A program made the position numbers and the translations under genes. From the IMG/VR virus record IMGVR_UViG_3300030406_002338, positions 1-40,997 of that record: a stretch of DNA of 40,997 bases, one strand, 5' to 3'. Each line of letters begins with the position of its first letter. The stretch's first letter is position 1. The notes below the pieces were generated by a model. It made no database searches and had not been told where the DNA came from. It saw only the letters and a list, made by a program, of their open reading frames with translations. The stretch is from a virus. This document shows positions 3,947-37,334 of the stretch, piece after piece.

Positions 3947-6159
3947 TAAGCATCCGTGCTAGTGTCTGTTGTATAAAATATTTTTACACCTAATAATCTT
4001 GCATCTGCTGTATGGTCATCTGCTGATACATCCCTAAATATTTCAAAGAAAGCTAGTTCATCTGCTGCTGCGTTTGCAACAGTAAGGTTACCACTAACAG
4101 CACTTATGTTTAAATCTTCTGCTGTGCCACTATGTGCTTTTGCAGTAGCCACGACTTCTGTTCCATAATTTACATCAATAGTGTCGTTATCACCTACTGA
4201 TACACCTGACATTGCCCATGCTACTGTGCCAGTATTCGTGCTTGATGATGTCCAATATGCTTGGAAAGTAATTGTACCTTCGTTCCAAGACTTTGGCATT
4301 GCTACAGAAAAATGTGCAAATTCATCAGAGTCTTTATCAAAATCTAAAACAATTAAGTCAGGTCTACCAGATGATGTTTCAACAGATGTTATAGAACCAC
4401 AACCATTTGATTCTGATGGTGTCATAGCAGTTGCAGGTATCCACATATTTTCAAGCCCAACTGTTTTTACTGCTGTGCCATCCATTGTAATTGCATCTGC
4501 TTCTAAAGTACCATCAATATCTGCATTTCCAGATATATCTAAAGTTGCTGCATCTAATTCGCCAGTAATAGTAAAGTTTCTTAAACCTGTATAATCTTTA
4601 TTAGAATCCAATATAACAGCTTTAGAGGCTATAGCAGTTCCAACAGCAGTTGAACCAAGATCAAGAGCATTAAGTTCTCCCACAACAGCAGTTATACCAT
4701 CTAAAACATTAAGCTCTGTAGCAGTTGATGTAACAGCTACATCTTCGTTTATTTTTGGTGATGTAAGCGTTTTGTTAGTTAAGGTATCTGTTGACTCTAG
4801 TGATACTAAAGTTGAATCACCACCTGCTGGTAGCGTAAGAACATTAGTTACACCTGCTGAGTGTGGTTGTGCTTTTACTATCTGCCCATGTGAATTACTC
4901 TCACAGTTAAATTGAATAGCACCTGATGATGTATTACCAACGATAGTTATATGCCCTGATCCTTTTGCTAATAATTGCAAATCAATATTAGTGTCATCAC
5001 CTGTTGCTGATAATTGTGGTGCGTTACCTGTTGCAGCGTTTGTTACATCAAATTGGTTAACAGCAGAGCTTGTAGTTTGAAATATAATTTGCTCATTGTT
5101 ATTTTCGTCAGATATAAAATGTGCATCATCTATTATTATATTGTTTGAGTTAGTATCTAAATTACCACCAAGTTGTGGACTACTATCATCTACTACGTCT
5201 GTCATAGTTCCTGATGCAAGACCAGATACAAGTGTTGACCTTGTAATTTTTTTCAAAGCACCATCAGTATCATCTATAGCTAATAAAGTGTCTGCTGCTT
5301 CTACGCTTGATATTGCAGATAAACTTGTAATTGATGTTGGGTTAAAGTTTGTACCATCTGCTATTAACAACATACCTGCTGTGTTAGTACCCATTACTAA
5401 ATCATCACCAGAAATAGTCAAATCTCCGTCAATTGTAGCATTACCTGCTACAGCAACATTTGCACCTGTAAATGTAAGAGCAGTAGTTGTTCCTGATTTA
5501 ATAATTAAATTACCACTATTGTTAGTAGCACTACCAAATGTAGTACCACCATCTTTAAAAAATACATCACCGCCATCAGCATCTAGTGTTAAATCACCTG
5601 ACACATCTAATGTCATATCAGATACGCCTGCTGTAGTAGCGTTAATAGTAAATACGTCTGTCATAGTTCCAGCAACAGATACGCCAAACCTTAATTGACC
5701 ATCTTCGTTTCCATTAGATACATCTGTTGCATCAGCAGTAATTCTTGCAAACTCGTGTTCATTACCACCATCATCATCCATCTTAAATGATATGTATATT
5801 TCATCTCCATCGGCTCTAGTAGAGTTATCACCAACAAGTTCTAATAATAAATTAGATGCGTTATTTGTTGCGTTTTCTATTCTCATAGGTGCAACAGTAT
5901 TACCTGTGTCAGATCGCACCCACATATGTTCTACTTGTACGTGGTCATCATGTTTCAAATACCTTACTGTAGAGCCTGACTCTATCTTTACATCTACGTT
6001 TTTACCTGTCAGTCCTGATGTAAATGACCATGATCCATCACTACCTGATTCTACTGTAGATCCTATTGCTGTAGTAGTACCAGCTTCTAATGCAGTTACT
6101 GTTGCTCCTTCTACAGGAGTACCTGCGTTGTTAAATATATATCCTTTTAGTCTGCTCAT
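3946..6159 (-). CDS. tail fibre or large virion appendage protein
   Basis: This 737-residue protein opens with a carboxypeptidase-regulatory-like beta-sandwich (residues about 1-70, GYIFNNAGTPVEGATVTALE and DGSWSFTSGLTGKNV). Long Ser/Thr/Asn/Asp-rich beta repeats follow. The central part carries fibre signatures common in marine phages: DTDGALKKITRSTLVSGLA (about 297-315), SSPQLGGNLDTNSNNIIID (about 328-346) and STDTLTNKTLTSPKI (about 454-468), then STATELNVLDGI. The C-terminal 150 residues form a separate domain with alternating strands (FDKDSDEFAHFSVAMPKSWN) that may bind receptor. It lies between the nuclease-like gene and the kelch-like gene and overlaps both ends by one base. Confidence 0.85.
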   Translation of the reverse strand: MSRLKGYIFNNAGTPVEGATVTALEAGTTTAIGSTVESGSDGSWSFTSGLTGKNVDVKIESGSTVRYLKHDDHVQVEHMWVRSDTGNTVAPMRIENATNNASNLLLELVGDNSTRADGDEIYISFKMDDDGGNEHEFARITADATDVSNGNEDGQLRFGVSVAGTMTDVFTINATTAGVSDMTLDVSGDLTLDADGGDVFFKDGGTTFGSATNNSGNLIIKSGTTTALTFTGANVAVAGNATIDGDLTISGDDLVMGTNTAGMLLIADGTNFNPTSITSLSAISSVEAADTLLAIDDTDGALKKITRSTLVSGLASGTMTDVVDDSSPQLGGNLDTNSNNIIIDDAHFISDENNNEQIIFQTTSSAVNQFDVTNAATGNAPQLSATGDDTNIDLQLLAKGSGHITIVGNTSSGAIQFNCESNSHGQIVKAQPHSAGVTNVLTLPAGGDSTLVSLESTDTLTNKTLTSPKINEDVAVTSTATELNVLDGITAVVGELNALDLGSTAVGTAIASKAVILDSNKDYTGLRNFTITGELDAATLDISGNADIDGTLEADAITMDGTAVKTVGLENMWIPATAMTPSESNGCGSITSVETSSGRPDLIVLDFDKDSDEFAHFSVAMPKSWNEGTITFQAYWTSSSTNTGTVAWAMSGVSVGDNDTIDVNYGTEVVATAKAHSGTAEDLNISAVSGNLTVANAAADELAFFEIFRDVSADDHTADARLLGVKIFYTTDTSTDA

Positions 6160-13120: not shown

Positions 13121-16100
13121 TTAGTCAATATATTTTTCACTAGGCAATTGTTCACGCAGTTCAAGTAACTCTTTAAGTTTATCTTGCCAAAATGCTTTTA
13201 CTTCAAAATATTGCCTTGGTATCCCTAACTCGTAACCTTCTGCTATCCAGTCATTATATTCATCTAAATACGGAACATTACTTGGTGCAAAGTTATCTTC
13301 TATCCATGATCTTTGACCTTCAGTTAAACTTGGATAAAATTTATTATCTCTAAAATCTAGCCAATCTTCTATCATAAATATTCCTGATTCTTCAGACGTA
13401 AATCTTTTCATGTTTTCATAATATTCTGTCATTGCTTGCGTATTTTCATCTGCATCATCAGGCTCATAATCTTCTAGTTTTAAAAATATTTTTACTGCTT
13501 CTTTTCCAGCATAAAAATCATTATCCAAAGCTTTTAATTCATCTTTTAATATTTCAAGTTTTCTATACTCAACATCAGAACCTCTTAATAACTGTGCAGT
13601 CAAAAATGCTTCTGAACCAAACCTTCCAAGATCATTAACAAATTCATTAATAACTCCAATTTGTTTAGCTGTTCTATCGTTTTCTAATCTTGCAGTAAAT
13701 GTATTTAAAGCAACGCCTTTTTCAATTTCTGGGTTTGCTTGAAATCTGTCTAAAGCAGGTTGCTCTTCTTCTCTTAATTTTAATTCAGCTCTTATATTTG
13801 GATATGCATTTAATATGTCCTCTCTTTGTTTTCTGTTTAGAAAAGACCATTTATCAGGCATGCTACCCAAAAATGTATCTTGCGGAGTTACAAATTCTTT
13901 TTTGTATTGATCAAGAGCATACTGCTTAACTTGTTCATTGTTCATTGCTCTAAAGTTTACAAAGAATTGACCCATGACACCTTTAGTACCTAATCGTTTT
14001 TCTGACGTTGCTACATATTGTTGCATTTTAGGATATTTCTGAGCAGATAAATTTAATGCATTTTGTGCCATCCACGGCAAAGATGTATCTGCAATTAATT
14101 GCGTTAGCCACATATATTTACCCTCAAAAGGTTGACCAAAAAAAGTTTCTTTATCTACTTGCCTTTTTATTGTTTGTATTGGAACACCTGTTCTTCCCCA
14201 TAACGCATCTATAGGACTCATCCATCTAAATATTGTGTCCATTTGACCAACTTGATCCACGTATACTGGTAAACCATTTCTTCCAAAGTAACCTGCTTTT
14301 GGTGCCATAAATTTGCTGTTATATTCATACGGCAAAAAAGAATCTTCGTTTATACTTTTTTGCAATGGCAACAATTGATCATCTTTCATTAAGTAATTAT
14401 CAACATAATCATCCATATCTTTTGGTGGACCATGTTTAAATATTTCAGCACCACTATTTTGTAAATTACCTATAATCCAAAAAGATATATAAAAACCTAA
14501 AAAGTTTTTAATAAAAAACGCCGATCTTTTTTTACTCATTTTTATAGGTATTTTTTTCAAACCCTTTGCACCTGGCTCAGGTCTTAAAAAACGCATACCA
14601 AGCATTTCAATACCTTGATTTAATAATGCTGTGTTTTCAATACGACTAAAAATAGCTAAGTTAAAAGCTTTTTGAGCATTTGCGCCTTTTATCCATTCTT
14701 GAAATAAACCTAATGTTGAAAATTGTGTATTGCTATATGTTGCCGCCCATGCCGCATGTTGTTGAGGCGTAAAATCTTTATTTACTCTAGCAGAGTACGG
14801 CAAAACATAATTTTTTATTGCACTAATTTGTGCGTATCTATAAGTACCTTCAAATAAACCACCTTGAAAAAAATTGTTTAAGTTACTTAATTCTTTTGTT
14901 AACCTTTTTGGTCCAAACTTATCAAATAAAGTAGGATTTGCTTTTCTAAATTCTTCAATGTTTCTATTTACGCTTGAGATAATACCTCTATCACCTTTTA
15001 CACCAGCACCTTGTTCTTCTAACATTCTAAATGTAACTTCGCCTGCCGATCCTTTTAAAACAGGGTTAACGGGCTTGTCAGATACAAGTTGTTTTGCTAA
15101 TTTATTTCTCCAAATTTTTCCAGTAACAGGCAAATTAGATAGCAATATGTCGCTTGCAAGAGAAATAGGTGTTGTAATACCACGATATATACCTTGAGCT
15201 ACTCTTTTTGGGTTAGTTAAATTAGATGGAACAAAAGTTTCAAAAACTGCACCTGCTGTACTTGAACCAAGACCTCTATAATACATATCTATGTGTTGCA
15301 AAGGCGCAAAGGCTACTTTTATTTGTTTACCAAACATATTAATTGTGTTTGCTTCATCTAACATAGGTACAGGTGGGTCTGCGTCAAAAATATTATTTAA
15401 AAATGTTGACACATTTCTTGGTACATAAATTTCAGGTGTAAATGCAACATCAGCTTTACCGCTTGGTACTAACATACCTTCAAAAGTAGGACCAATTTTT
15501 GGAACTTCCCATTGTTTTTGAATTTCTTTAGGATCTAAACCTTGATCTAATAAATCATTTTTAGTTTTCATTAAACCAAACTTATTAAGAGTATTCATCA
15601 TTACTTGCATTTCACGCCATGATGAACCATATATTTTTCTACTTGCCATCATTGAAGCAGGATCTGGAGTGCTTGGTAATAAACCTTCATAACCTGCCTC
15701 TGGATTATCTACTAACATTTCTATAAATGTTCTGTTTACTCTACCTTTTGAAAAATCAGGTGGAGGACCTGCAACTCTTCTACCTGAAACAATTTTTTTA
15801 CCTGCTTTATCTTGCCACAACCTAGGAAAATAATTTGGTATGCCCATCATTTTTTCAAAAAATATTTCTGCATTAAAACCTAAACGTACTGTATCCCACG
15901 TTTTGTCGTCTACTGCCCTAAATGTATCTGATAAGAAATCAAGCATTTCAATTTCTTCTTCTAACCTAAGAACAGTAACTCTGTTGTACATATCTCGTTT
16001 CCACGGCTCTGTTAATGAATCTCTTGCTTCTGACGGAGATAATGGCGTTCTAATACCATACTGTCTATTGCCAACATTTATAACCTGCATGTTTGCTGTA

Positions 16101-19100
16101 ATTAATTTAGGGTCAGTTACTAATCTTTCTCCGTGCAATGCCGCATACAAATCTAATGTGTCATTAGGGTCTCCGTATGAATCAAAATTAGTAGTTAAAT
16201 TGTTAGGATTTATTTTATATTTTTTATATACAGCTTTTTGTGTATCTTTAACCCATTGTTCGTTTCTGCTAATTATAGAATTTCTTGCACCTTCTAGTTG
16301 TCTCATTAAACCAACTGTTCTGGTTTCTTCGTGGCTAGGTAAAAAATGATTGTATAAAATTTTATATGAATCATCGCCATCTTCGTATTCATCTACATAT
16401 GGTTCGTCTGGTTTTTTACCTTTTCCATCGCTTTCAGGACTTAACCTTTCTTTAAGTTTATTTTCTACTTTTTCAATTTTTGCTATTTTTCTGGCATGCG
16501 ATGCTTCTATCCTGTCAATAATTTGTTTTGACTCAGGATCAATAGGAAAACCAAGTTCTTTTTCAAACTTACTAAATCCTGCATCAGGAACTTTTTTATG
16601 AACAGCATAAACAAATCTTTTAACTTCAGGAGACAACCCTGTGTGTTCGTTAAGTGTAAAACCAAACAATCTTTTAAAGAAACTAATTAAATATTCAAAA
16701 CCTCTTCTTATTTTTGATTTACTAGCATCTTTCCAAAAACCGCTATCTGGGTTACTAAGATAATCCATAAAGTCATCTGCAAATTTTTCATGATTTTTAC
16801 GTGTCCATTTGCCATCTTTTACATTGTAATATTTTAATACGTTGTCATATTCATCTGGATCTAAAAAGCTTTTTAATTTAGGAACAGTTAAATGACCAAT
16901 TTCATGAAACATATCTGCTATGTTTGCGTTTTTATAAGAATTTACAACTGTTTTGCCGTCATTAAAAAATTGTACACTTGCTTTAACACCTGATTTAGTT
17001 TTTCTGAATACTTCAAAATCTGTAATGTTTTCTATATCTAACATTGTTAATGGCTTGCCATCTAGTTCTAATGTAATAGCATCTAATGTTTGATTACGAC
17101 TTCCTAATGAATAAATAAATTTAAAATCTGCTTCAAGTGGTTCTGGTTCTGGCGTATAAAATGGGTCATCTTCATACAAAAATGCGTCTTGGTTAGCATT
17201 ATATTGTGCTTGTGCATACATATCATCTAAATCATCAACTTTTATAGAATTATCTAAATCCTTCATAAGATCCTTTATGCTTTCATTAGTATAAACATAT
17301 TTTTTTATCCCATTAGACATGGCTTTTGTATAATATTCTTGCGATGGTGTTTTTCTTGAAATTGATGTGTTGTTTCTTTCAGGAAATTCTTTGTACAATA
17401 ATTTTAAAGAATTTTCCATTTCATTAATTATATCTCCTACTATTTCCATATGTTTGCTAGAACCTGGACCTTCTTCTAATTTTTTATTTTGATACGCTTT
17501 AAACATACTTAAAATATCTTCATCGTTATGCAATGGTTTAGCTGTAAGAGCATTATCAGCAAAAGGATCTATAAATTCTTTTTCTCCTTTGTATATGATT
17601 GGGGTACGAGACGCTACATTGTATTTTGTTGTTACTAATTCAGTTTTAACACCCTCGTATAAACCGCCTTTATAATTTAAATCATCAAATTGTTTTTTTA
17701 AAAAATAAGGCACAGAATCTTTTGTTACATCAACATAAGAATTAGCGTTTGTTGCTTCACTACTAAAATTAGTTTTATAGATTATTTTTGAATAATGTTT
17801 TTGATTTGCACCTTCTAATCTTTTTCTAACATTACTGGTTGCACTTAAATCTGTACCTTCTTTAAATTTTCCAAAATTTATTGCACCCATCAGCTTGCCT
17901 CTAATTACATTATTGCTTCTAGCCATTTCATCAGTTTTTAAAGCGTCTGCTATATCGCCACCAAATAATTCTTTAACCTGACTCCATGTTATTTTTGGTG
18001 GATCCATACGAGTATAAGCATCAGCATCTGATTGATGAATTCTTTTTAAATATTGCATATATTTTGACAACATATCATTAGGCGAATCTCCAATAAACTC
18101 CGACATATTTGATTTATATGTGTGTTTTGCTAACAACCTTTTCATTTTTTGACCTTCTTCAAGGTTATAAAAATTATTTAATGTTGGGTCTGATAGTCCA
18201 TTTCTTACATTTTGCAAATCTGCAAGCTCATCAAAATCTTTATTACTAATCGTTTTAAAACTATTAAATTTATTTAAACCTAGAGGTATAATTTCATAAA
18301 GTGGTTCATTAACAAAAGTTTCCTCCATTATTAAATCATCAAAACTTGTTTCTTCTGTACGTGGTACAGGATTGTATTTAGTATATAAAATACCATTTAT
18401 ATCTCCTCTGTGAATATAATTCATATCTATTGGACTTAAACCAATGCTTGAACCAACCGCAGAAACGCTATCATCAAATAATATTCTTGTTATATTGTTA
18501 TTTCTTGCATATTCCATAATCATTTTTGCCATCATTTGGTTAAATGTTTTTTCGTTTAATCTTGGTGCATCAGGAGCCAATTTCATATATCCATCAACCC
18601 AAGGTATTTGAATATTAGGCAATCTTCCCATTTCTATATCAGTAATTTTTTTATTTGATAATCCAAAGTCTTTTTTTAAAATTTCTCTAAATTCCCTTAA
18701 AGATGTGCCTGCCATAGGATGTTTTTTATTCATTTGCTCTGCACTATCGAATCGGTGATCATATTTTCTTTGAGCCAAATAAACTACTATATTTCTTCTT
18801 TTATCTTTTCTTCTTGCTGTGGTATTATCTAATTTTTCGTAAACCATTCCTTGAATTGAATCCTCTGGTAAAGTATTTTTCCAAAAATTATTTTTTGATG
18901 CATGATCCCACATAACTGTATTTTTATAATTATTTCGATCTGCTCTTGCGTTGTTAAGTTCTAACCTTAATTTCTGTAAATCATCAGAATTAGAAATTTC
19001 AGCTTGCCTTACTTGTGTTTCCAGTTTTATAACAGCAGAATTACGAACTAAATATTCATTTGTCATATCTTCAAACTCACGCCATTCTTTAATTTTTGCG

Positions 19101-22100
19101 GCATCAACCCTGTCAGTATCTTTTACTCTGCTACTTTTCCATGATTGTATTTCACTAACTGAAATAGCATCTGTACCATCAGCTTGTTTTACAGTTTTTA
19201 TTCTTGCCCACCCTAAACCATCAGCATCAGCTCCATGAAAATGCATTTCTAAACTATTGCTATGTCCTCTAAGAAATTTGTGTTTTTCTACTTCTGCTAC
19301 ATAATTAGCAATTTCATCTTGGCTCATATATTTCCCAGCACCTGCAAATGTGTTAGCAGGGTCTGTTATATCAAATAATTCATCTAAATTTGCATCAGGA
19401 TATTTTTGTATCAATTCAGTCATTGTTTGATATATTCCATATGACTCGTGGTTATGCACCAAATTTAATATTTTTTCATCATTTGGAGTATCAGCGGCAC
19501 CCAAAGTGTTGTACATATTGTACGTTCTAGACCTTTTTAATCGAGAGTCAGACATTACCATTTCACCAACAAGAGAATTAGGAATTACGTTTACAAAATA
19601 TTCATCTGCAAATTGCCTTGCATCTTCAGCAGTTTGTTCTACTGATATTTTTTTTATTTTTGCTGTATTTGTGATGTTGTAAACATCAAACAAGCCCTCA
19701 TCGTTTTCTTTAATCCATGCAGACTTAGAATAATAATTTGCTTTTCCGTTTATATATTTTGGTTTAGAAAATTTGTGTTTTAATAAAACTGTGCCATCAT
19801 CTTTGAAAAACGTGCTGTCGTTTATTCTAACTTCATAACTAATCATGTTTCGTCTTACTAAATCATAAATTTCAGAAAATTTTACTTCTGTATTATTTTT
19901 AGGATTTATTAGATCATAAAGACCATTTTGCCTTAATGCCGCGTCAAAAGTTACTTTTGGATCAGTTTTTGAAATAGTGCCTGCATTAATTTTTTTCCTA
20001 ATTATATTTTGATATTCCTGCAACCAAGAATTGTATAAAGCGTTTGCTTTTAAAGTTTTATTAAAATTTTTACGAACAGCAACATCGTCTACAATATCTA
20101 AATCAACATTAAGTCTTATTCTTAATGCATCAATTGCATCAAATGAATTACTAACAACAGGTCCTGCCATCATTTGATAATCTGTTTCAGGCTCTTCGTA
20201 TGAATGAAACGTCCTGTCATTTATGTCATTTACTTCTGTTTCGTATCTATCTGTCCTTATATTGTTTAACTCTAATTTATGACCTTCTCCACCCTTCATG
20301 CCTTCATCTGACGCTCTTTGATAACCTAATGCATTAATCAAATCTGCACCTAATGCTCTATATTTTACATCCGCAGTTCTACCAAAACCTGAAAGGTGTT
20401 CTTGGCTTATTTTACCCATCGGATCTTCACCAATAGCTACCCTGTGAGATAGTTCTGTTCTTGTTTCTTTTAGTGGTTTAATTAATTTGTGGCTTGTATC
20501 AATAATTTCATTTTTTGCATTTTGATGCGTGTTCCAATATATAGTGTTTTGCCAATTTGTATGCATCCTAACTATTGGATTACTTAAATATTCTTGTCGT
20601 TGTACGGGTGTCATTTCTGGCAAGTCATCAAAAACCCTATTAATATCATCTAAGATTTTTTTATTCTGTGGCATTTGAGGATCTGTTATATTTGCATAAG
20701 TAGCTTCTGGAGTATTTATAATTCTAGTATCAGATTTATGCACATTGCTTAATTGATTTGGTAAATCTTGTACACCTGCATTACCAAATGTTCGTTCAAC
20801 TTTATAAACATATTTAGGCAACTCTTCTGATAAATACCTTTGCCTTATATCTTCTGGCAACTCACTCATTCTGCCATTTGGTATAAAGTTTTTATTGTTT
20901 GCTAATTCAATTGTGTTTCTTGCGCCACCTCTTAATATACGCCGTATAGCATTTTGCCCAATTTCCAATGGTATTCCAATTATTCCTGTACCTATCAAGA
21001 AACCTAAAACCTCACCTGGCTCTACATCTATTCCCAAAAATTCCGTTCCTGTAATATTGTTTTCTAAAAATGGTTTTATAGATGAATGTGGATTTGTTGT
21101 GTTAACTAAAAATGGCATAGAAATTGTAGACATAATATTATCTGCTAAACTATCACCAAAATTAGCTCTATGCGCTATCATTGCTTCTTCAAACAATCTT
21201 TCTTCTTCAGGATTAAACAATCCTGCTTTACGATAACCTTGCTGTACAAGTCCTGTTGAATACGGAATTAAATACCTTTCTTCTGCCATTTCAAACTTAA
21301 GTGCTTTACTAACATTGCTATAAGTAAGCCAGTTTTTTGGTCTAACAGTTCCCCAAAATCCTTTGTTTTGATATGCATTTTTTATTGCTCCAATTTGTTT
21401 TACAGGATTTTTTGCCAATACACTTTTTACAATACTGCCAGTCATTTTTAAACCGCTAGTTAAGAAAATTGTTTCTGCAACTGCTCTTGGTGCGTTTCTC
21501 AAAGCTTCAACTTGTCTAAATTCATTGAAAGCTAATTCTCCACCAAAACTACCAAATTGTTCTGTTCTTTTTGCGTTGGTTGATAAAATATTTTGCCAAG
21601 TATCTTTCCATAATACATTAGCATTTTTGTCTCTAACCCTTTCAGGTTTCATTCTTCCAAGCGCTATAAACACTTCGTCCATTGCTAATGTGCCAGCTTC
21701 ATAAGGATCTATACTGTTGTAACCTGCTGTTTGACTTAAATATTTGTCTGCTATAGTTGTAAGTTCTGTAAATTTATTTTGTGGCAAATTTACTTTTTCT
21801 GTTTGTATAATATTACTTACTTGGTTAAATATTTGTTTTGCACTACGTATTTCTTGAAATGTAGATGCTTGTTGTTGTGCATCTTTATTTACTTGAAAAG
21901 TATCAAATTCAGGAGCATATTCTGCCGCTCCTTCGGGGTAATTTCTTATAATAGCTGGGTCTGTAGCAGGTCTCATATTAGGAGGACTGTAATCAGGAGC
22001 AGGTCCTAAACCAGGTGCGACTGGTGGTGGAGGTTGCGGTGGTCTTTCATATGTTTGACCTAATTGATTTGCCATATTAGCAGTTGGTTGTACTGGCATT

Positions 22101-22225
22101 ATTGGCAACGTGCTATTTGCTGTTCGTTGCCTTCTAGTAAAATTTAAAAATGGTCTATCTGCGGGATCCGTATTACCTGGATCTCCTGGTGGTGGTGTTG
22201 TGTCGAAAAATTTGTTTGTTACCAT
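13121..22225 (-). CDS. giant polyvalent virion protein with zincin motif, probably ejected with DNA
   Basis: This single frame encodes 3034 residues, 22% of the window. Residues 1-95 are proline-rich and disordered. Around 990-1035 an LGWARIKTV...EIQSW block (E1025-W1029) resembles the EIQSD(W) domain I recall from large phage polyvalent proteins. Near 1774-1778 there is a HEIGH zinc-binding motif. E1813, in NHEKFADDF, is spaced as a plausible third ligand, so a metalloprotease-like domain is likely. Weak hydrophobic segments appear near 410-430 and about 2571-2588 (FYISFWIIGNL). The rest is long helical stretches with charged coiled coils. Its place between portal-linked genes and the scaffold matches internal proteins ejected into the host. 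Ejection and anti-host activity are inference. Confidence 0.8.
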   Translation of the reverse strand: MVTNKFFDTTPPPGDPGNTDPADRPFLNFTRRQRTANSTLPIMPVQPTANMANQLGQTYERPPQPPPPVAPGLGPAPDYSPPNMRPATDPAIIRNYPEGAAEYAPEFDTFQVNKDAQQQASTFQEIRSAKQIFNQVSNIIQTEKVNLPQNKFTELTTIADKYLSQTAGYNSIDPYEAGTLAMDEVFIALGRMKPERVRDKNANVLWKDTWQNILSTNAKRTEQFGSFGGELAFNEFRQVEALRNAPRAVAETIFLTSGLKMTGSIVKSVLAKNPVKQIGAIKNAYQNKGFWGTVRPKNWLTYSNVSKALKFEMAEERYLIPYSTGLVQQGYRKAGLFNPEEERLFEEAMIAHRANFGDSLADNIMSTISMPFLVNTTNPHSSIKPFLENNITGTEFLGIDVEPGEVLGFLIGTGIIGIPLEIGQNAIRRILRGGARNTIELANNKNFIPNGRMSELPEDIRQRYLSEELPKYVYKVERTFGNAGVQDLPNQLSNVHKSDTRIINTPEATYANITDPQMPQNKKILDDINRVFDDLPEMTPVQRQEYLSNPIVRMHTNWQNTIYWNTHQNAKNEIIDTSHKLIKPLKETRTELSHRVAIGEDPMGKISQEHLSGFGRTADVKYRALGADLINALGYQRASDEGMKGGEGHKLELNNIRTDRYETEVNDINDRTFHSYEEPETDYQMMAGPVVSNSFDAIDALRIRLNVDLDIVDDVAVRKNFNKTLKANALYNSWLQEYQNIIRKKINAGTISKTDPKVTFDAALRQNGLYDLINPKNNTEVKFSEIYDLVRRNMISYEVRINDSTFFKDDGTVLLKHKFSKPKYINGKANYYSKSAWIKENDEGLFDVYNITNTAKIKKISVEQTAEDARQFADEYFVNVIPNSLVGEMVMSDSRLKRSRTYNMYNTLGAADTPNDEKILNLVHNHESYGIYQTMTELIQKYPDANLDELFDITDPANTFAGAGKYMSQDEIANYVAEVEKHKFLRGHSNSLEMHFHGADADGLGWARIKTVKQADGTDAISVSEIQSWKSSRVKDTDRVDAAKIKEWREFEDMTNEYLVRNSAVIKLETQVRQAEISNSDDLQKLRLELNNARADRNNYKNTVMWDHASKNNFWKNTLPEDSIQGMVYEKLDNTTARRKDKRRNIVVYLAQRKYDHRFDSAEQMNKKHPMAGTSLREFREILKKDFGLSNKKITDIEMGRLPNIQIPWVDGYMKLAPDAPRLNEKTFNQMMAKMIMEYARNNNITRILFDDSVSAVGSSIGLSPIDMNYIHRGDINGILYTKYNPVPRTEETSFDDLIMEETFVNEPLYEIIPLGLNKFNSFKTISNKDFDELADLQNVRNGLSDPTLNNFYNLEEGQKMKRLLAKHTYKSNMSEFIGDSPNDMLSKYMQYLKRIHQSDADAYTRMDPPKITWSQVKELFGGDIADALKTDEMARSNNVIRGKLMGAINFGKFKEGTDLSATSNVRKRLEGANQKHYSKIIYKTNFSSEATNANSYVDVTKDSVPYFLKKQFDDLNYKGGLYEGVKTELVTTKYNVASRTPIIYKGEKEFIDPFADNALTAKPLHNDEDILSMFKAYQNKKLEEGPGSSKHMEIVGDIINEMENSLKLLYKEFPERNNTSISRKTPSQEYYTKAMSNGIKKYVYTNESIKDLMKDLDNSIKVDDLDDMYAQAQYNANQDAFLYEDDPFYTPEPEPLEADFKFIYSLGSRNQTLDAITLELDGKPLTMLDIENITDFEVFRKTKSGVKASVQFFNDGKTVVNSYKNANIADMFHEIGHLTVPKLKSFLDPDEYDNVLKYYNVKDGKWTRKNHEKFADDFMDYLSNPDSGFWKDASKSKIRRGFEYLISFFKRLFGFTLNEHTGLSPEVKRFVYAVHKKVPDAGFSKFEKELGFPIDPESKQIIDRIEASHARKIAKIEKVENKLKERLSPESDGKGKKPDEPYVDEYEDGDDSYKILYNHFLPSHEETRTVGLMRQLEGARNSIISRNEQWVKDTQKAVYKKYKINPNNLTTNFDSYGDPNDTLDLYAALHGERLVTDPKLITANMQVINVGNRQYGIRTPLSPSEARDSLTEPWKRDMYNRVTVLRLEEEIEMLDFLSDTFRAVDDKTWDTVRLGFNAEIFFEKMMGIPNYFPRLWQDKAGKKIVSGRRVAGPPPDFSKGRVNRTFIEMLVDNPEAGYEGLLPSTPDPASMMASRKIYGSSWREMQVMMNTLNKFGLMKTKNDLLDQGLDPKEIQKQWEVPKIGPTFEGMLVPSGKADVAFTPEIYVPRNVSTFLNNIFDADPPVPMLDEANTINMFGKQIKVAFAPLQHIDMYYRGLGSSTAGAVFETFVPSNLTNPKRVAQGIYRGITTPISLASDILLSNLPVTGKIWRNKLAKQLVSDKPVNPVLKGSAGEVTFRMLEEQGAGVKGDRGIISSVNRNIEEFRKANPTLFDKFGPKRLTKELSNLNNFFQGGLFEGTYRYAQISAIKNYVLPYSARVNKDFTPQQHAAWAATYSNTQFSTLGLFQEWIKGANAQKAFNLAIFSRIENTALLNQGIEMLGMRFLRPEPGAKGLKKIPIKMSKKRSAFFIKNFLGFYISFWIIGNLQNSGAEIFKHGPPKDMDDYVDNYLMKDDQLLPLQKSINEDSFLPYEYNSKFMAPKAGYFGRNGLPVYVDQVGQMDTIFRWMSPIDALWGRTGVPIQTIKRQVDKETFFGQPFEGKYMWLTQLIADTSLPWMAQNALNLSAQKYPKMQQYVATSEKRLGTKGVMGQFFVNFRAMNNEQVKQYALDQYKKEFVTPQDTFLGSMPDKWSFLNRKQREDILNAYPNIRAELKLREEEQPALDRFQANPEIEKGVALNTFTARLENDRTAKQIGVINEFVNDLGRFGSEAFLTAQLLRGSDVEYRKLEILKDELKALDNDFYAGKEAVKIFLKLEDYEPDDADENTQAMTEYYENMKRFTSEESGIFMIEDWLDFRDNKFYPSLTEGQRSWIEDNFAPSNVPYLDEYNDWIAEGYELGIPRQYFEVKAFWQDKLKELLELREQLPSEKYID

Positions 22226-35345: not shown

Positions 35346-35993
35346 ATGGCTACAGAGACAACGGCACTACAAGTGCCAAAGCAAAACTTGCACGAAGTTG
35401 TCGTGCGAATTATAGGTACTAGCGAACTAATTGTTCACAAGTTTAGTGCCAAGTCAATCAAACAGATTGAAGATATACAGGCTAAGAAAGCTAAGACAAA
35501 GTCTAAGCGTAAGCCTGAGGACGAATACAATGACTGTTTTTACAGATGGGCAGATGGCAATCAAGACGCAGACAAGGGCGATCACAAGTGGGATGGTAAA
35601 TCTACAGGTGTTCCCTCTATAGCGATCAAGAAAGCAATGGTCGGTGCATGTAGACAAGTCGACATGCCAATGACACTTGCGAGACAAGCATTTCATGTAC
35701 AGGGTTCGGTACTCAAGATCGAGAACGCAGAACCATACATGCGAACAGACCATGTCAGGATTGGTGTAAAGCAGACTGACGTGCGATACAGACCATCTTA
35801 TCCTATCGGTTGGTCAGTTGATGTACCAATTGTTTACGATGCTGATGTAATCAGCATAGAACAGTTACTCAACCTGATCGAGAGAGCGGGGTTTAGTGTT
35901 GGCTTGTGCGAACACAGACCTGAGAAAGATGGCGACAAAGGAATGTTTAAGTTAGACTTATCTAAAGACTTAGAGGACAAACCTCTAAGTTGA
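35346..35993 (+). CDS. conserved phage protein (LIVHKFS...IRYRxxYPIGWSV type), role unknown
   Basis: The 215 residues show HEVVVRIIGTSELIVHKFSA (about 16-35), a charged helix KQIEDIQAKKAKTKSKRKPE, a centre with GVPSIAIKKAMVGACRQVDM (about 88-107), and FHVQGSVLKI. They also show VRIGVKQTDVRYRPSYPIGW (about 137-156) and a C-terminal EQLLNLIERAGFSVGLCEHR (about 174-193). I recall this arrangement from uncharacterised proteins in many siphovirus genomes near replication genes. A DNA-associated role is inferred from the neighbours only. Its last codons form a nine-base-arm hairpin (35968-35990) just before the stop. Confidence 0.7.
   Translation: MATETTALQVPKQNLHEVVVRIIGTSELIVHKFSAKSIKQIEDIQAKKAKTKSKRKPEDEYNDCFYRWADGNQDADKGDHKWDGKSTGVPSIAIKKAMVGACRQVDMPMTLARQAFHVQGSVLKIENAEPYMRTDHVRIGVKQTDVRYRPSYPIGWSVDVPIVYDADVISIEQLLNLIERAGFSVGLCEHRPEKDGDKGMFKLDLSKDLEDKPLS
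35968..35990 (+). terminator. terminator-like hairpin covering the end of the 215-residue gene
   Basis: ACTTAGAGG and CCTCTAAGT are perfect complements with an ACAAA loop, ending one base before the stop codon. The nine-pair stem is the strongest in this part of the operon and divides the AAA/VWA block from the gene-free stretch that follows. There is no U-run, so attenuation or RNA processing is as likely as termination. Confidence 0.4.
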
Positions 35994-36003
35994 TCCTTAT
36001 TCG

Positions 36004-36059
36004 GAGAGGTGCGGGTGCGTTTTTCCCTCCAAGAAAAAGTTACACCGCTCGCACTTCTC
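36004..36059 (+). ncRNA. nested three-stem RNA hairpin with a CCUCCAA loop
   Basis: Stem 1 is ten pairs: GAGAGGTGCG (36004-36013) with CGCACTTCTC (36050-36059), one G-T pair. Stem 2 is GGTG (36014-36017) with CACC (36043-36046), with GCT bulged. Stem 3 is TTTTTC (36020-36025) with GAAAAA (36033-36038), closed by the loop CCTCCAA. CCTCC is the anti-Shine-Dalgarno sequence of 16S rRNA, so the loop could pair with ribosome sites of phage messages. It follows the 215-residue gene by 10 bases and would be transcribed with it. No ORF explains it. Confidence 0.5.
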
Positions 36060-36074
36060 TTACATGTAACGTGC

Positions 36075-36176
36075 ATGCAAGTAGTCGGAGCAGTCAAGAT
36101 TGACGCTCATTTAATTCCAGACAACGCAGAAACAACAACCATAGGTTGCGATGTGATCAGTAAAACAAACTATTGA
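36075..36176 (+). CDS. possible 33-residue protein (weak)
   Basis: The frame reads MQVVGAVKIDAHLIPDNAET and ends in DVISKTNY. It looks protein-like (alternating hydrophobic and polar residues, then a strand), but there is no ribosome site upstream. It may be the remnant of a longer gene. It lies between the three-stem hairpin and the G array. I give it only as a possibility. Confidence 0.25.
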   Translation: MQVVGAVKIDAHLIPDNAETTTIGCDVISKTNY

Positions 36177-36286
36177 CTGTTTAATTAAAATGCTGATCTT
36201 TCCGCAATCATGGGTAGGAACGCTGAACATAAAACAATGTTAAGAACTACCAAAAACTGGAAAGGTAGTCGCTTGCATGACTACAT

Positions 36287-36770
36287 GGCAGACAGGGCGA
36301 GTAAGGTTATGATTTGATATGGAGTGTCGGGCGATGGCAGATGGGGTAAGATCCGTAGAGGCGGGGAATGGTTGGTTAGTTTTAGGAGAGTTATGGCAGA
36401 TGCGGTCAGGTAAGTTACGTTAGTTTGTGTACAGGTGTGTTCAGGATATGGCAGACGTGGTTCGTACGGGCGTAGTCGGAAATGTTACGTTTCGGTAAGG
36501 CAGACGAGGCTTGTAGAGTTAAGGTCAGGTGCGTTACTGAGAGTTAAGTTGCGGTAAGGCAGATGGGTCAAGGTATGGTGCATCGGGGTTGGAATGGTAG
36601 CGGTAAGGCAGACGAGGTTAGGTCAGTAAGGGCGCAGTATGATGCGTTATGGAGAGTTTTGGCAGACAAGGTCGGGCTTGAATGGGAGCGTTGAGTATGG
36701 TTTCGGTAAGTTATGGTAAGCGCAGACGGGGTTTGAATGGTCGGGTTACGATATGTTTCGATATGGCTTG
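36287..36770 (+). repeat. 5-base-periodic G array with GGCAG phase markers
   Basis: Starting at 36291, G occupies every fifth base on the plus strand for about 480 bases: 92 of 98 phase positions. At seven of nine GGCAG/CGCAG markers the phase steps by four instead of five (first G to last G of GGCAG). The markers start at 36287, 36336, 36395, 36450, 36499, 36558, 36607, 36661 and 36721 (the last is CGCAG, no shift). Spacings are 49, 59, 55, 49, 59, 49, 54 and 60, that is mostly 5n-1 with n of 10 to 12. GGCAGAC/TGNGG is the broader repeat. C makes up about 10% of bases. The six misses fall one per module from 36340 to 36660. No coding potential is visible. Confidence 0.9.
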
Positions 36771-36777
36771 ATTTTAC

Positions 36778-36798
36778 AGGTATCATGTGATACCTTTT
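36778..36798 (+). terminator. perfect palindrome plus T-run at the 3' edge of the G array
   Basis: AGGTATCA-TG-TGATACCT is an 18-base perfect palindrome, followed by TTT. It ends the gene-free stretch 27 bases before the next gene. As RNA it would be a moderate stem with a short U-tract, so a weak terminator that defines the 3' end of a transcript of the array is possible. As DNA it may be a dimer binding site. Confidence 0.45.
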
Positions 36799-36824
36799 AA
36801 CAATAAACAAGTAAAGGACAAATT

Positions 36825-37334
36825 ATGAAATTTGTATGGGGAGACAATCCCTTTCTCAGTACAGAGGGTATACGCGATTTAGATCCGCAGATAATAGGCG
36901 AGCGAATCGAGTTCTTGCTCTCTACTCATGGAAACAAGCTTACTCCTGAGGTTCTTGTGCGAGATGCACAAAATGTAGAGAGTCCGCTTAATCCTATATT
37001 TGCAGAGCATGTAAGTAGTAAGGCACACAAGTGGGATCTCAACATAGCTAGGAACGTCATGAGTGGGTTGCGTGTTATCTTCGTCAACGAAAGCGGAGAC
37101 GAGGACACGAAATACGCTCTTATGAGCGTCAGGAATGAGGATGATGGCAGAAAGAGAGAGTACAGGCACATCAACATAGTTGAGTCAGATGACGATGTGA
37201 GAGCGAGTGTAACTCGTGATGTCATATCTCAGCTAAAATCAATCAACAATAGGTATTCATACCTAAAATCTATTGGACCTCTCACACGTGCGATAGATGA
37301 AATGGAAGAAATGGATGAAGATGGAAACGAATAA
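36825..37334 (+). CDS. 169-residue conserved phage protein (LTPExLVxxAxxxxSPL type)
   Basis: AAAGGA precedes the ATG, which lies in the loop of an ACAAATT/AATTTGT hairpin (36818-36835). Residues 38-62 read GNKLTPEVLVRDAQNVESPL, then NPIFAEHVSSKAHKWDLNIA and RNVMSGLRVIF. I recall this pattern (a helix, SPLH.xFxW-like block and AR.L...V strand) from small unnamed phage proteins near replication modules. It starts the replication block. Its function is unknown, and its place suggests a role in DNA replication or recombination. Confidence 0.65.
   Translation: MKFVWGDNPFLSTEGIRDLDPQIIGERIEFLLSTHGNKLTPEVLVRDAQNVESPLNPIFAEHVSSKAHKWDLNIARNVMSGLRVIFVNESGDEDTKYALMSVRNEDDGRKREYRHINIVESDDDVRASVTRDVISQLKSINNRYSYLKSIGPLTRAIDEMEEMDEDGNE

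Follow-up and report, generated by a model that had tools for sequence, protein, structure and literature searches.

The window, that is, the whole stretch of 40,997 nucleotides analyzed here, carries on its plus strand a compact locus composed of a gene for a protein of 215 amino acids (35346 to 35993), a leader (36000 to 36286), an array with a five-base period (36287 to 36770), and a second, downstream gene (36825 to 37334). A consensus scan places a terminator-like hairpin at the 3' end of the first gene (35967 to 35991), which says nothing on function, and no clear promoter was detected by a promoter scan. The leader is mostly conserved in a near-identical phage (locus L009) and has a hairpin, ACTACC...GGTAGT, directly before the array, its overall fold being no better than that of shuffles (z = −1.4). 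Past the array, sequence and fold define the hairpin AGGTATC-ATGT-GATACCT followed by TTT (36778 to 36798). It is a possible end of the array transcript, with a stability not above shuffles (z = −1.1), and the terminator consensus scan missed it. Two other features of the window deserve mention: a minus-strand open reading frame (36568 to 36810) that overlaps the array and looks like an annotation artefact, and a single minus-strand frame of 3034 amino acids (13121 to 22225), located between the head and tail genes, that takes up more than one fifth of the phage sequence.

The array was described with a dynamic-programming chain that expects a G each 5 nt and penalizes slips of 4 or 6. From 36291 to 36770 this chain holds 98 phase positions, 91 of them being G, with a score of 52; no score exceeded 13 when the same bases were dinucleotide-shuffled 300 times, and chains of the other bases of the window, on either strand, reach 9 at best. 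The G at every fifth base reported for 36287 to 36770 by the first-pass annotation is thus real and exactly placed, its count of 92 G becoming 91. The same periodicity emerges at lag 5, where 98 G-G pairs are observed versus 72.6 ± 5.3 expected (1000 shuffles, maximum 88). The six phase slips are all of −1 and all GGCAG, as previously noticed, and the marker spacings of 49, 59, 55, 49, 59, 49, 54, and 60, together with a CGCAG marker that keeps the phase, were recovered without change. These markers had been explained as an NGCAG pentad that lost its first base; a four-base GGCA unit, equivalent to a GGYNN pentad lacking one N, is the better reading. Moreover, the bases between the phase Gs are free at offsets 3 and 4 only, C representing 2% at offset 1 and G 3% at offset 2. 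The pentad of the window is then G-D-H-N-N, being G strict at the phase position only and the second G and the Y relaxed to D and H.

Chain and offset composition divide the array, on the plus strand, into nine modules, each with a four-base unit (GGCA in eight, CGCA in one) and 9 to 11 pentads: M1 (36287 to 36335), M2 (36336 to 36394, 11 pentads), M3 (36395 to 36449), M4 (36450 to 36498), M5 (36499 to 36557), M6 (36558 to 36606), M7 (36607 to 36660, 10 pentads), M8 (36661 to 36720, 11 pentads), and M9 (36721 to 36770), which has the CGCA marker.

The product of the upstream gene has no Pfam match and belongs to phrog_4652, a family without assigned function. A profile of 51 relatives searched against the PDB with hmmsearch retrieved one credible chain, the Vipr protein of phage SUSP1 (36pp_D), with an E-value of 2.5e-11 over nearly the full length. 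Also, the AlphaFold2 model (pLDDT 90.6, pTM 0.83) finds its best Foldseek matches in RAMP proteins of the Csm3/Cas7 type, with a top E-value of 1.7e-6 (8do6_E). On the basis of profile, model, and structural comparison, the gene encodes a Vipr/RAMP protein and is called vipr hereafter. Homologues are present in Gordonia phages, Mycobacterium phages, and a cyanophage, and a scan of IMG/VR gave 342 relatives, of which 85 loci were studied for an array.

VIPR has been reported so far in one preprint from 2026, where an ancestral RAMP protein (Vipr) is associated with vrRNAs of 9 to 16 YNNGG repeats whose NN letters recognize DNA with one skipped base, the examples being Escherichia phage SUSP1 and a Pseudomonas fulva prophage (PMC13142463). 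Because VIPR was already described this year, the window array is a member of a known system, and the locus a further VIPR. Over 7523 pentads from the loci collected here, the consensus is G94 / G69 T17 / Y83 / N / N and equals the published GGY/NN. In addition to the homologous RAMP protein, the window shares with VIPR, as presented in the main text of the preprint, guides in the published size range (9 to 11 pentads versus 9 to 16) with a GGY/NN-type consensus, coding-DNA targets with the skipped base at the wobble position, and a minimal phage locus that includes a single accessory gene. Here the accessory gene is the downstream one, a candidate vap of the phrog_15946 family, which neighbors vipr in 83 of 89 loci, 82 of these within 3 kb. 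The AlphaFold2 model of its product (pLDDT 91) weakly resembles winged-helix/MarR-like proteins (best E-value 0.5), a likeness compatible with the vap proteins of the preprint, which bind DNA (PMC13142463). The MoxR and VWA genes upstream were considered as system parts and rejected, because they neighbor vipr in the window's own clade only; a literature search for phage systems joining MoxR, VWA, and a Cas7-like protein found nothing relevant.

However, the window differs from the published systems in its scaffold, relaxed to G-D-H in an AT-rich phage, and in having its guides in a single continuous tail-less array with 4 nt of GGCA between modules. In the SUSP1 clade, each vrRNA ends in a conserved structured 3' tail (PMC13142463); between the window modules only GGCA is found. 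Since array architectures vary between types, with staggered arrays and a related consensus mentioned in the preprint (PMC13142463), such a tail would not define all VIPRs. Compared with the Cas7/Csm3 filaments of class 1 CRISPR-Cas, the fold is alike, as is the principle that each short RNA segment takes one subunit, whereas the period is 5 instead of 6 and the code gapped rather than contiguous. Neither CRISPR repeats nor any cas gene, cas1/cas2 included, were found, and PADLOC was negative. An Rfam search gave no match, so hammerhead interspersion is absent.

A strict phase G next to a RAMP-like gene would be enough for protein binding, and the array could then be a scaffold or decoy RNA, coated by the Vipr-like protein along its pentads, with NN letters devoid of target information. 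The evolution of the array argues otherwise. Between unrelated arrays the NN letters are the least constrained, but in orthologous modules they are the best preserved while the scaffold drifts. In the near-identical phage sampled as L007/L009, Vipr and the flanks are as in the window and modules are transposed or replaced whole: the order of M2 and M3 is transposed in L009, and M5 and M6 are replaced. Across the seven orthologous modules, 8 of 136 scaffold letters (offsets 1 and 2) changed versus 1 of 136 NN letters, M4 having four scaffold changes and no NN change; the L011 copy of M2 also carries scaffold changes. A similar pattern is observed at greater distance in L010, whose Vipr is 63% identical to that of the window. 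In its copy of M9, the last module, the first eight pentads keep 16/16 NN letters despite six scaffold changes, and its copy of M1 keeps 15/16 despite nine. Stretches of eight pentads with identical NN and four to seven scaffold changes occur in four pairs of loci (window/L010, window/L009, L047/L057, and L012/L022), and 117 eight-pentad NN strings are identical in different loci, whereas a control with the order reversed gave 0. Comparing unrelated arrays by blast was dropped as a test of NN constraint, as it mixes non-orthologous modules, and a codon-structure likelihood test over all NN letters was weak. Conservation of NN under a drifting scaffold indicates selection on NN, the scaffold needing only to fit the protein, and this pattern supports the NN dinucleotides as the carriers of target information.

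The content of that information is best seen in M1, with NN letters AG GA AG AT TT AT GT GG AT. Under the published 1-nt-skip rule it becomes AGx GAx AGx ATx TTx ATx GTx GGx ATx and decodes to R-E-R-I-F-I-V-G-I, motif VIII (QxRxR) of C5 DNA methyltransferases. The core of M1, in the window and L010 variants, has at least 82 matches in IMG/VR within QxRERI motifs of C5 methyltransferases. Among the matches listed, the 16 that agree with the window M1 in 18/18 letters all lie in QxRERIFIVG(I/F), in sense frame and with the skip at the wobble position, as do the five full matches of the L010 variant, so that 21/21 full matches listed are in a C5 methyltransferase gene and in wobble frame; two of the matched genes were assigned to PF00145 (E-values 3e-71 and 1e-75). 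Two differences separate the variants: AG/CG, arginine in either case, and Ile/Phe, at a site where the motif itself varies. From these matches, C5 DNA-methyltransferase genes, found in many phages, are the predicted target of M1, although the motif is very common, which leaves a small probability of a chance match. The contig of L247, sampled in the metagenome that also yielded L010, matches the L010 variant exactly, a suggestive co-occurrence that is not counted as proof because such samples are virus-rich.

Six of the nine modules were scanned, and a target was found for M1 only, which gives the scaffold or decoy reading some support. Pattern scans for M2, M5, M7, M8, and M9 returned chance-level matches, including 19/20 matches on three contigs for M7, near the chance expectation, and 0 exact 18-base matches for M8. 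Against the phage's own genome, the window modules match no better than shuffles. In an underpowered test on the decoded guides of the pooled loci, the 1-nt skip was in modest excess. In a Streptomyces VIPR (L089), the 12-pentad guide at 5376 has a single site with 22/24 letters in 296 genomes (control, 0), located in a prophage, antisense in a phage exonuclease gene and with the skip at the wobble position; the other guides of this locus do not match that prophage. The same array holds near-duplicate guides at 5715 and 5906 (NN of GC CT AA CC CC AA CT GA GT and AC CT AA CC CC AA CT AA AT), as if directed against two alleles of one target, and the duplicated pattern has three weak matches, equal to the control level. 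Considering that M1 decodes to an exact in-frame gene motif, that NN is what orthologous modules preserve, and that modules turn over whole, an RNA that serves only as scaffold or decoy is very unlikely.

The association of array and gene bears on a second group of explanations, in which the repeat acts as DNA. The window array is G-rich on one strand, and a replication initiator-like gene follows some 2 kb downstream of it, as could be the case for an origin, an R-loop region, a pac site, or a protein site read every half helical turn. However, the arrays of the relatives neighbor vipr and are placed either within the lysogeny region or between tail genes. Arrays flank vipr homologues in Gordonia, Mycobacterium, and cyanophages. 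The array directly adjoins the vipr homologue in the first four relatives (4/4) with differing surroundings, and the identical phase rule holds at the homologous locus. A score of at least 18 was reached in 79 of the 85 vipr loci, with the array at most 700 nt from the gene in 77, whereas 571 kb distant from vipr in the same loci contain no array (best score 13). Because the array tracks vipr in 77/85 loci, across unrelated phages and differing gene neighborhoods, the half-turn, R-loop-primed replication, and small-terminase pac proposals of the first-pass annotation are unsupported. Moreover, the base code present in the array would be needless for replication or packaging, and a DNA element is therefore extremely improbable. 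A regulatory RNA read by TRAP or another host ring protein, which would share the five-base spacing of G and the regular G-containing units, can be practically dismissed, since TRAP-regulated RNA holds multiple (G/U)AG triplets spaced by 2 to 3 nt, which are not required here (NN precedes the phase G), and the array is long, modular, hypervariable in two of five letters, and linked to a phage RAMP gene.

Several loci show features of their own. The largest array seen, by far, has about 822 pentads over 4 kb and at least 39 GGCAG junctions (L056, 10665 to 14675) and adjoins vipr on a viral contig of 114 kb. In Mycobacterium phage Donkeykong (L002), the hypothetical protein annotated as gp48 (5450 to 5836) spans the vrRNA array, and the start given for gp49 (vipr), at 5803, falls inside this array; both look like annotation artefacts. 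A second strong chain (score 81) is located near 4392 on the minus strand of L062, some 2 kb away from the array linked to vipr and on the strand opposite to it. Four loci (L052, L058, L060, and L065) have a vipr homologue and no G-phased array in the flanking DNA examined, so the scaffold base or the array position may differ there. At the DNA level, a search of cultured phages gave no match.

Altogether, it is highly probable that 36287 to 36770 is the vrRNA array of a VIPR system, with nine guide RNAs separated by GGCA, Vipr encoded upstream, NN letters that read the target, and a presumed repression of competing elements. The earlier idea of an RNA read each five nucleotides by a ring or filament protein was correct in kind, the reader being a Vipr/RAMP protein related to Cas7/Csm3 instead of a TRAP ring; it had missed that the adjoining 215-aa gene encodes this reader and that guide information occupies two letters in five. 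The present analysis provides the array, the homology and fold of Vipr, their linkage, the NN constraint, the module turnover, and the coding-frame target of one module, whereas RNP formation, the 1-nt skip, and repression come from other VIPRs (PMC13142463). For the window phage, we infer function from the homologues, the conservation pattern, and the decoded target. Vipr, made from the gene directly upstream, would bind the array transcript with one copy on each five-base repeat and hold the G-D-H bases as the scaffold. The two NN bases would pair with target DNA, one target base being skipped between pairs, such that 9 to 11 repeats would cover a site of 27 to 33 bp with the skipped bases on codon wobble positions. 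The GGCA unit would break the phase and mark the end of one guide and the start of the next, and the RNP, by analogy with the described systems, presumably represses genes of competing elements.

Regarding the junctions, 92 arrays contain 717 slips of −1, of which 398 are GGCAG, and this slip is present in 69 of 81 loci. The uninterrupted modules between GGCAG slips have lengths that peak at 9 to 11 pentads (109/189), which suggests that the short GGCA unit would be a guide boundary or a processing point. In L036 and L040, many GGCCG and GGCGG slips occur besides GGCAG. The main text of the preprint mentions staggered arrays and, as far as it goes, does not describe GGCA junctions (PMC13142463). 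A broader proposal, which we consider somewhat less than evenly probable, is that the clade with Vipr, the phrog_15946 accessory, and tail-less continuous arrays uses an undescribed punctuation, in which each guide is defined by the GGCA-shortened pentad, which interrupts the phase of the filament, and that some guides also aim at conserved protein motifs, here motif VIII of the C5 methyltransferases. Within this proposal, skipping the wobble positions would allow a guide to aim at a conserved motif, and a single guide would then recognize all of a gene family across many competitor phages.

Finally, these results are an independent confirmation, by evolution alone, of the gapped RNA guide code previously reported in one preprint, and they extend the range of VIPR to many uncultivated and actinobacterial phages. 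The GGCA junction rule would allow arrays to be divided into guides, and a target that can be read, the DNA-methyltransferase motif predicted for M1, makes the claimed phage-versus-phage role directly testable.
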